A stretch of DNA of 64,000 bases, from contig NZ_JACHOU010000002.1 in the NCBI RefSeq assembly GCF_014206975.1, positions 372,001 through 436,000 of the forward strand, read 5' to 3'. This DNA is from Aminobacter aganoensis. Lineage in GTDB: Bacteria; Pseudomonadota; Alphaproteobacteria; Rhizobiales; Rhizobiaceae. The notes under the pieces were generated by a model that was not told where the DNA came from, made no database searches, and was given only the letters and a program-made list of their open reading frames with translations. Below, in pieces: positions 5,605 through 7,151 of the stretch; positions within the stretch are counted from its first letter, which is position 1, and each line of letters begins with the position of its first letter. The translations under genes and the position numbers were made by a program.

Positions 5605-6180
5605 TCAGAACGTTCTCGCGCCGCGCGAAACAGCCCGCGCCAGCATGCCTGTGATCTGTGCTTCGGATTTGCGGAACGATGCAGCGTCCTGCGCCGTGAC
5701 GTTGAAGACGACGTTGACGGCGCCACCGCCGCCGGGTGCCGCGACGCCGAGGCTGCCGTCAGCCCCCCGGCGCAGCGGCAGGATGGCCTCGGGACCAGCT
5801 TCGCCCATCAGTCCGATGTTCCTGCCGGCCGGAAAATAGGTAGGCGATGACACCACCCCGCCGGAGGCAAACGGCGTCACGCCGCCAGTCACCCCGCCTT
5901 TCGCGAAGGGAAGAACGTTTTGCAGGCCTTTCAACAAGTTCTCGAACAGAGACGCGCCCTGTGCCTGAAGCGGCTTCAGGCCGTGCCCCAACGCCATGCC
6001 AGCGAGATTCATTCCCAGGTTTCGCAGCACGTCCTCGAGTTCGCGGCCGCCGACGGTTGCCATCCTCAGCGCGCTGGTAAGATGAGCACCAAAGCTGTCG
6101 GATAGCTTTTCCAGCGACTTCAACGTCTCCACGAACGAACTGTCGTCCGCCTCTATCCTGACCTCGACCTTCTCAGCCAA
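5605..6180 (-). CDS. Short tail tape measure protein (g11-like)
   Basis: The protein has 191 residues from a TTG start at 6180. The upstream chaperone frame ends 8 bp inside this gene. The C-terminal half has the repetitive Gly-rich motif FAKGGVTGGVTPFASGGVV and then GPEAILPLRRG, typical of lambda-type tape-measure C-termini. About 190 residues is far shorter than phage tape measures but normal for GTA g11, which sets a tail about 50 nm long. The TTG start suggests modest, coupled translation. Confidence 0.88.
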   Translation of the reverse strand: MAEKVEVRIEADDSSFVETLKSLEKLSDSFGAHLTSALRMATVGGRELEDVLRNLGMNLAGMALGHGLKPLQAQGASLFENLLKGLQNVLPFAKGGVTGGVTPFASGGVVSSPTYFPAGRNIGLMGEAGPEAILPLRRGADGSLGVAAPGGGGAVNVVFNVTAQDAASFRKSEAQITGMLARAVSRGARTF

Positions 6181-6352
6181 TTTGGCTCTCCGTTTGATCC
6201 GGAAACCGGTTCATCAATTCAATCAGTTGCGCCTTGCCCGGCGCTCCGGTTCTGGCTGTCGCGATAGTGCTCATCGCCCGCTCCAGTTCGCGCGGCGTCA
6301 TTGCCCAAAAATCTTTCGGCGATAGCCGCAGCAGGCCGAACCCCGTGGCCAT
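6173..6352 (-). CDS. Tail assembly chaperone, second frame (GTA rcc01693/TIGR02216-like); probable -1 frameshift product
   Basis: From the first in-frame ATG (6352) this encodes 59 residues with the family core GFGLLRLSPKDFWAMTPREL. Conserved-looking residues (AAEFPWDRA) precede that ATG in the same frame. I found no ATG, GTG or TTG upstream in this frame as far back as I translated by hand, well into the g10-like gene. The frame is reached from g10 by a -1 slip at A AAC CCT (6406-6400), just before the g10 stop. The functional product is therefore plausibly a g10-chaperone fusion, as for lambda G/GT. Its stop overlaps the tape-measure gene by 8 bp. The fusion is inference; the family match is strong. 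Confidence 0.8.
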   Translation of the reverse strand: MATGFGLLRLSPKDFWAMTPRELERAMSTIATARTGAPGKAQLIELMNRFPDQTESQIG

Positions 6353-6396
6353 CGCGCGGTCCCAGGGAAATTCGGCAGCTGTGCCCGCTGCGGCGG

Positions 6397-6738
6397 CTAA
6401 GGGTTTGGACCATCCTCGGCCTTGGGCGCAGCGCCGAAGGTCGTGGTCAGGAGGTCCGAAACGATCGCGGCAAAGCCGGCGACGCCACCTTCGGCCCGCA
6501 TGCTGCCCACCTCGTCGTCGGAAAGCTGATGTCCGGCACCGCGCAAGCCGGCGCCGATGATACGGATCATGTCGGTGGCGGACAGCCTGCCGGAGGAAAA
6601 GCGCTGCACCAGCGCAGTCAAATCATCGGCGGCATAGCTCGCCTCGAGCTCGGCCAGGGCGCCCAGTGTCAGGCACAGCCGGTGGCTCTTGCCGTCCAGT
6701 TCGGCGGCAATCTCGCCGCGTCGCCTGTTCACCGTCAT
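6397..6738 (-). CDS. GTA tail assembly chaperone, first frame (g10-like)
   Basis: The protein has 113 residues starting at the ATG at 6738, which overlaps the stop of the tail-tube gene by 4 bp. It begins TVNRRRGEIAAELDGKSHRL and resembles the GTA g10/gam transfer-associated family (a beta-rich N-terminus followed by helices). It lies between the major tail protein and the tape measure, exactly where tailed phages encode chaperones that coat the tape measure. The last codons read CCA AAC CCT TAG and contain a candidate slippery heptamer. Longer upstream readings of this frame are shadows of the tail-tube gene. Confidence 0.88.
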   Translation of the reverse strand: MTVNRRRGEIAAELDGKSHRLCLTLGALAELEASYAADDLTALVQRFSSGRLSATDMIRIIGAGLRGAGHQLSDDEVGSMRAEGGVAGFAAIVSDLLTTTFGAAPKAEDGPNP

Positions 6739-7151
6739 GGCGCCACCGTGAAGCCAACGACGCCGGCAGACTCCAGCGCTACCTCGAACGTCACCTCGCC
6801 GTCGTGGTTGCCGGTGTATTCCAGCGCGGTGATCTGGAACGGCCCGTCGACGACGCCGAAATCCGGCACGGCCAATTGCCACCTCACGATCTCACTGCCA
6901 AAGAAGCAGGTGCGGATCCTGGCATCGGACTGCTGGTCCTTGAAGATGCCCGAGCCGCTCACCGCCGCCCGCTGCACGCCGCTCCCGGCCAGCAGTTCGC
7001 GCCAGCGCCCGGCCGACTCGGCATCGGTGATGTCGACCGTCTCGCTATTGAAGGCGATGCGTTTTGAGCGCAGCCCAGCAACGGTGACGAAGCTGCCAAG
7101 ACCGTTGGTGTCGATCTTGAGCAGAAGGTCCTTGCCCTTCTGTGCGACCAT
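6735..7151 (-). CDS. Major tail (tube) protein, GTA g9-like
   Basis: The protein has 138 residues starting MVAQKGKDLLLKIDTNGLGS, the N-terminus typical of the TP901-1/GTA major tail protein family. The pattern of alternating strands ending in TFEVALESAGVVGFTV fits the tube-forming beta sandwich. It should form stacked hexameric rings around the tape measure. It follows the g8-like gene after a 49-bp gap and precedes the chaperone frames, the standard order. Confidence 0.93.
   Translation of the reverse strand: MVAQKGKDLLLKIDTNGLGSFVTVAGLRSKRIAFNSETVDITDAESAGRWRELLAGSGVQRAAVSGSGIFKDQQSDARIRTCFFGSEIVRWQLAVPDFGVVDGPFQITALEYTGNHDGEVTFEVALESAGVVGFTVAP

Follow-up and report, generated by a model that had tools for sequence, protein, structure and literature searches.

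Ribosomal frameshifting in tail chaperone genes is a well-known phage mechanism, and the lambda heptamer, GGGAAAG, is also used by some of the loci described here. Known -1 signals of the dnaX type combine an SD-like element upstream, a slippery site and a downstream stem at about 5 nt. In lambda, the tail assembly chaperones are produced by a -1 frameshift of the G/GT type, the short form coating the tape measure and the fusion recruiting the tail tube (PMC5009743). Frameshifts in tail chaperones are also described in Rhodobacter capsulatus phages (PMC8601537), that is, in the same kind of gene and in alphaproteobacterial hosts; these are phages, however, and the excerpt reports none for RcGTA itself, whose g10 and g10.5 are described as tail chaperones 1 and 2 (PMC11409702). 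A +1 frameshift has been proposed in the hydrolase of a putative GTA of Wolbachia (PMC10299305). Among the matches listed from the open-licence literature, judged by title and the opening of the abstract, we found no description of a -1 frameshift in an RcGTA-type cluster, and subscription papers may say more; in the excerpts of PMC8601537, PMC11409702, PMC3610622, PMC10783043, PMC7296036 and PMC9632790 no passage concerns a GTA frameshift.

Here we analyse a 64,000-nt stretch of the Aminobacter aganoensis genome (contig NZ_JACHOU010000002.1, positions 372,001 to 436,000; hereafter the window). A programmed -1 ribosomal frameshift between the two tail chaperone frames of its GTA cluster is, with high confidence, the best explanation of what we found, the slippage and the fusion protein being what we infer from sequence. 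The locus shares with lambda G/GT a pair of overlapping frames that lie between the tail tube and tape measure genes and stand in -1 relation, with a slippery heptamer closing the first. It differs in lying in a chromosomal GTA cluster and in its AAACCCT site, or, in relatives, a C_CCY without a matching P site; relatives also have a covarying stem with the 3' arm in the second gene, and many use a start codon instead. With dnaX-type signals it shares the three-part layout, but the gene is unrelated, and the stem of the window closes over about 46 nt with its 3' arm in conserved codons.

Materials and methods

Loci were collected by searches with PF11836 and PF09550 in relatives, in the family, the order and the class, in further families and in a few plasmid and phage records, including one scan of named genomes (best 80 of 575). 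From a total of 442 loci, 18 were dropped, leaving 424 with adjacent chaperone frames, 382 that are non-identical and 306 representatives at 80% clustering. Some counts come from an earlier set, where 16 of 356 rows were dropped (11 with a weak or absent partner, five not adjacent) and the remaining 340 came to 313 after removal of identical junctions; of its first 250 representatives, 228 have the second frame at -1. The loci are the top-scoring matches of each search, so that the set leans to close relatives. The loci of family f74 are the best tail-tube matches among 184 genomes with a match (30 taken, one unusable, plus L088), and the family was labelled Rhodobacteraceae-like on account of a best tail tube with 92% identity to Rcc01691.

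An extra check set of 80 IMG/VR loci, 16 of them identical to earlier ones, gave 64 new non-identical junctions under the same rules. Many of its contigs are about 14 kb long and resemble GTA clusters binned as viruses, and for this reason the check set is not independent in lineage. Many of these 'viral' contigs (L443-L522) are apparently GTA clusters that have been classed as viral, and on our reading of their numbers several come from isolate genomes.

The downstream stem was found from base conservation at +12 to +19, counted from the heptamer start, and from the reverse complement downstream, not from fold energy. Codon and pair tallies of the stem use the 95 rows that already pair at 10/14 or more; means, slides, swaps, the register scan and covariation are unfiltered. 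The 36 equal-length junctions are the slip-site representatives with a linker length of 36, out of 137, and were not chosen for pairing. In anti-SD profiles, failed duplexes were set to zero.

Results

The window locus

The cluster is co-directional, in the order HK97 portal, protease, capsid, TIGR02215, TIGR01563, tail tube, PF11836, TIGR02216, RcGTA_tape, TIGR02217, TIGR02218 and TIGR02219; the neighbours include a head-tail connector and a head closure protein. The terminase match is weak (0.003) and the RcGTA_tape match lies below its cut-off. The gene order is RcGTA-type, and both chaperone frames sit between the tail tube and tape measure genes (Table 1). The pair is homologous to that of RcGTA (PF11836 and TIGR02216, 'rcc01693 family') and stands in the same order; the second RcGTA gene also goes by the name g10.1.

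Table 1. Features at the chaperone junction, in window coordinates
Feature	Coordinates	Strand	Evidence and remarks
Tail tube protein (g9 homologue), directly upstream	6735..7151	-	PF06199 2e-44; PDB 6tba Rcc01691 4.5e-50
g10-like first tail chaperone ORF (zero frame)	6397..6738	-	PF11836 Phage_TAC_11 (GTA-gp10) 5.8e-31; ATG start; 113 aa; C-terminus ...GPNP*
SD-like element GAGGATGG, candidate stimulator	6410..6417	-	GAGG ends 7 nt and the 8-mer 3 nt before the heptamer
Slippery heptamer A_AAC_CCT	6400..6406	-	Sequence; kept in relatives
Zero-frame stop TAG, directly 3' of the heptamer	6397..6399	-	
Stem, 5' arm GCCGCAGCGGGC	6383..6394	-	Begins 5 nt after the heptamer; +12 to +23 from heptamer start
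Stem, 3' arm GCCTGCTGCGGC	6325..6336	-	Within GLLRL codons of the second chaperone
-1 frame from slip site to TGA stop, second tail chaperone	6173..6406	-	PF09550 Phage_TAC_6 1.1e-16; TIGR02216 2.1e-15
Predicted g10-TAC fusion, 188 aa	slip into -1 frame	-	TGA stop at 6175-6173
Short tape measure ORF (RcGTA-type), directly downstream	5605..6180	-	NF058675 1.4e-48, 165.5 bits, below the curated cut-off of 220

The original prediction, made from this sequence alone, described a g10-like frame ending CCA AAC CCT TAG, with AAACCCT directly before the stop, and a TIGR02216-like second frame in which no ATG, GTG or TTG precedes the conserved residues. We recovered the heptamer at 6406-6400 in the phase A_AAC_CCT, and the profile match bears out the identity of the second frame. 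The absence of a start, noted at the time for the translated part, extends to the whole of the frame, which reads ...KPLAAAAGTAAEFPWDRAM... and is open from 6622 to its stop on the minus strand: no ATG, GTG or TTG, and no CTG, ATT, ATC or ATA, is found before the conserved FPW codons at 6370, the earliest ATG/GTG/TTG being the ATG at 6352. X_XXY_YYZ occurs in 9 of 3043 in-frame codon pairs of the 13 ORFs of the cluster, AAACCCT in only one of them, and the 64 kb of the window hold AAACCCT five times on both strands. As sequence evidence a lone heptamer is weak; its conservation across relatives is not what chance would leave.

The AlphaFold model of the 100-aa g10 domain has a mean pLDDT of 90, and a Foldseek search with it found no solved relative (best match E 2.5, unrelated). 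An Rfam search of 6280-6450 gave no match. The same genome carries a second PF11836 copy (L029, G000:C28:27613-27897) without an adjacent PF09550 partner, probably a prophage relative.

Slippery sites across relatives

The alignment of junctions that the original prediction had proposed supports it, both in the conservation of the heptamer and in the constraint on synonymous codons. An X_XXY_YYZ lies in phase in the overlap in 135 of the 228 -1-frame representatives (80% clustering) vs 11 and 9 in the other two phases. Since TTTCCC can arise simply from the conserved FP codons of FPW, heptamers touching FPW were left out in a recount, which gave 117/228 in phase against the same 11 and 9. The linker KP codons are AAACCC in 80/100, vs 2/16 elsewhere, and CCT encodes the Pro that precedes the g10 stop in 69/95, although it makes up 154 of 1658 Pro codons in these genes. 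Over all 306 representatives, 202 have a slip site in phase, namely 152 heptamers and 50 C_CCY tetramers only. The tetramer loci (G_GAC_CCT, C_CGC_CCT, G_CGC_CCT) keep C_CCY without a P site that re-pairs well; the tetramer is a weak criterion, being in phase in 10 of 79 -1-frame representatives that have ATG/GTG and lack a heptamer. The 64 new IMG/VR junctions comprise 43 with a heptamer (1 and 3 in the other phases), 17 with a tetramer and four with a start.

Differing lineages have differing heptamers: AAACCC, GGGAAAG, CCCTTT and GGGCCC. Where g10 runs through FPW, the junction PF codons are CCCTTT in 40 of 50 non-identical loci, compared with 30 of 99 among the rest (Fisher 1.1e-8, with relatedness ignored). 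CCCTTT[CTG] is found at the PF codons in family f56 (L357-L365, L368-L373, L089, L094) and family f61 (L104, L111, L406, L408), where g10 mostly extends 16-40 nt past FPW; a heptamer of this type is present in 17/20 f56 loci, all but L362 without a second-frame start. Judged by its sequence, this arrangement is another form of the frameshift, without the rhizobial stem. In L103, three in-phase GGGAAAG heptamers stand at the g10 end, ahead of the second chaperone.

Downstream stem and upstream SD-like element

Counted from the first base of the heptamer, positions +12 to +19 read GCCGCAGC with strong conservation and pair with second-gene codons at FPW+34 to +47. In the window this stem has 12 bp and is present in the minimum-energy fold. 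Mean pairing of a locus with its own partner is 10.76/14 in 87 AAACCC/GGGCCC representatives and 10.36/14 in 50 tetramer representatives, vs 4.45-7.44 of 14 in registers slid by 1-6 and 6.17 in start-codon loci. When partners were swapped among loci, the heptamer class fell to 9.57 (sd 0.15, maximum 9.90) and the tetramer class to 9.11 (sd 0.23). The same diagonal fills the top eight places of the register scan; in 50 CCCTTT representatives the scan found no such stem (best 0.15 pairs over swaps), and start loci gave nothing comparable either. Among the 36 equal-length junctions, 85.9% of cells are paired vs 82.6 (sd 0.8) in shuffles and at most 55.0 when slid, and the covariation score is 0.173 vs 0.123 (sd 0.011), reached in 0 of 500 shuffles. 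Pairs changed on both sides number 5 vs 3.3 in these junctions (51/500 shuffles, not significant), and the RNAalifold covariation term is only -0.46.

Codon choice follows the pairing arms: in the stem rows, the 5' arm has GCA at +15 in 74/95, a codon that accounts for 243 of 2534 Ala codons in these genes; in the 3' arm, CGG stands at FPW+42 in 93/95. The stem falls below 10/14 in 42 of 137 slip-site representatives; 11 of 15 GGACCCT tetramer loci have it. In the IMG/VR check, 45 scored stems average 11.98/14 (41/45 at 10 or more) vs 11.08 (sd 0.12) when swapped. Fold energy compared with shuffles showed no greater stability in the stem region of the window (z -0.73) and no clear excess over the 55 nt from 5 nt past the heptamer (window z +0.55, class mean z -0.59). 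The case for the stem is one of covariation and register in the aligned sequences, not of stability. A short hairpin directly after the heptamer was set aside by eye. Transcriptional slippage was discounted, the site having no long homopolymer run.

Upstream, the best anti-SD-pairing 8-mers of the window end 4-6 nt before the heptamer (-5.9). Averaged over 82 AAACCC representatives, pairing peaks with 8-mers whose end lies 7 nt upstream of the heptamer (-5.0 kcal/mol), the background 60-105 nt upstream being about -1.4 to -2.7 kcal/mol. The peak is -4.5 at 7 nt in the tetramer class, -5.4 at 13 nt, and broad, in the CCCTTT class, and -5.6 at 10 nt in nine GGGAAA loci; start-codon loci have a weaker peak (-2.9), 2-6 nt before the start.

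Slip site or start codon

A slip site is lacking in 104 of the 306 representatives, and in 97 of these 104 an ATG/GTG lies no more than 45 nt ahead of the second domain; among the 202 with a slip site, such a start is absent in 168 and present in 34 (either-or, Fisher 3.7e-41, with relatedness ignored). A FastTree tree requires no fewer than 31 changes of state. Over 10 independent pairs on supported branches, an average of 7.3 pairs had slip site and start changing in opposite ways and 0.0 had both changing alike (median p 0.016, range 0.008-0.125); counting heptamers only, 15 independent pairs gave 7.1 opposite vs 0.5 same (median p 0.031).

Start-type loci have ATG or GTG a few codons ahead of [FLI]DW and no heptamer. 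The original prediction held that homologues in which the second frame has its own start, and which lack a slippery sequence, would speak against frameshifting. Such homologues exist in the Rhodobacteraceae-like family f74, the RcGTA group, where among the best tail-tube matches 29/30 have an ATG/GTG start, one (L423) has TTG, and 0/30 have a slip site; in family f1, that of the window, slip sites prevail (80 heptamer, 31 tetramer and 19 start only among 130 non-identical loci). By this test the prediction stands for the family of the window and not for the Rhodobacteraceae-like loci. Both states occur in family f61 (5 heptamer, 13 start). In L017 the second frame is at +1 with its own ATG and AAACCCT still alongside, possibly the relic of a lost frameshift.

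Discussion

The frameshift of the original prediction fits with the conserved heptamer, the synonymous constraint, the SD-like element and the covarying stem downstream; to it our study adds the stem, the SD-like element, the variants with C_CCY only, the other heptamers and the repeated exchange with separate starts. The product would be the fusion predicted in Table 1.

The two chaperones could instead be separate chains, the second made by termination-reinitiation where its start codon overlaps the stop of g10 (NTGA type, TTGA among them), as happens in Rhodobacteraceae-like and other loci with ATG/GTG and no heptamer. A TTG start is possible wherever TGA follows the slip site, which is the case after AAACCCT in 33 of 42 representatives and after the CCCT of tetramer-only loci in 22 of 24. 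In the window, however, TAG directly follows the heptamer, so that a TTGA overlap is impossible, and the open frame has no start codon before FPW. Across the 53 representatives with a stop right after AAACCCT or AAACCCC the stops are mixed (TGA 40, TAG 11, TAA 2), and therefore a TTG overlapping TGA cannot be the conserved feature; TAG or TAA follows in 13/53, and seven more read CCC TGA, giving no TTG. The stem (10/14 or more) is similarly common without and with a TTG (34/50 vs 29/37 in the heptamer class, 16/23 vs 16/27 in the tetramer class), and the would-be TTG lies about 13 nt beyond the end of the SD-like element vs 2-6 nt in true start loci. We consider reinitiation very unlikely here.

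Less probable again is that the second frame begins at the internal ATG at 6352, downstream of FPW, with the slippery site incidental. This ATG is the first start codon of the frame, and the phage record MW091529 has the gene annotated from an ATG after FPW, but the FPW region upstream of it is conserved, and the heptamer, the linker codons and the stem are under constraint. We give hardly any credence to a chance heptamer, an annotation or sequencing artefact, or a decayed cluster. In-frame heptamers are not rare in the cluster, as the codon-pair count showed; against chance or artefact stand the phase excess, the synonymous constraint and the covariation over hundreds of genomes, and against decay the intact neighbour genes.

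For the programmed frameshift, we propose that the majority of ribosomes would end at the TAG at 6399-6397 and release the 113-aa first chaperone. A minority, with Asn-tRNA on AAC and Pro-tRNA on CCT, would slip one base back onto AAA CCC and continue through TTA GCC GCC ..., so that the 188-aa fusion would carry ...EDGPNPLAAAAG... (...GPNPLAAAAG...) across the junction. In the simplest form, the A-site Pro-tRNA would move from CCT to CCC while the Asn-tRNA re-pairs on AAA. The SD-like sequence and the 12-bp stem probably stall the ribosome and set the frequency of slipping. By analogy with lambda, the fusion would be the counterpart of gpG-T and recruit the tail tube, leaving the short form to coat the tape measure. 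In this model, where the tRNAs stand, how efficiently they slip and what the fusion does for tail assembly are all inferred.

We also lean, somewhat cautiously, towards a wider view. Outside Rhodobacteraceae, most alphaproteobacterial clusters of RcGTA type would depend on a -1 frameshift, in rhizobia by a three-part signal of an SD-like element, a C_CCY-centred slip and a long-range stem into the second gene. In about one third of the AAACCC/GGGCCC-plus-tetramer loci (50/137) the A-site tRNA would drive the slip and the P site would re-pair little. Exchange of the frameshift with a separate start would have happened some 30 times, which would make the chaperone fusion dispensable for GTA tails, and RcGTA would be the exception, having lost the frameshift or never had it. 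The tetramer loci, which keep C_CCY with a poor P site, fit a report that in E. coli A-site re-pairing matters and C_CC.Y tetramers slip (PMC4066793). Counting against the frameshift, the same report describes C_CC.U and C_CC.C tetramers as only moderately shifty, and A_AA.C_CC.A as below threshold.

Where no start exists, the second chaperone can be missed or mis-started in annotation, as in MW091529. Two metagenomic records deposited as phages, L391 (MW091529.1) and L392 (MW462191.1), have the same junction, AAACCCT followed by TGA, and the same gene order, and by sequence they resemble GTA clusters of rhizobia; in both, the annotation places the start of the second chaperone over 40 nt beyond the g10 stop.

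Since the sampled loci of its group are without the frameshift, experiments in RcGTA are unlikely to show one. Related clusters would make both proteins either as a pair like G/G-T or as separate chains, and may thus offer a natural experiment on why long-tailed phages conserve the frameshift. Bacteria are believed to retain GTA clusters for purposes of their own, and a conserved recoding signal within these clusters argues that correct tail assembly is still under selection.
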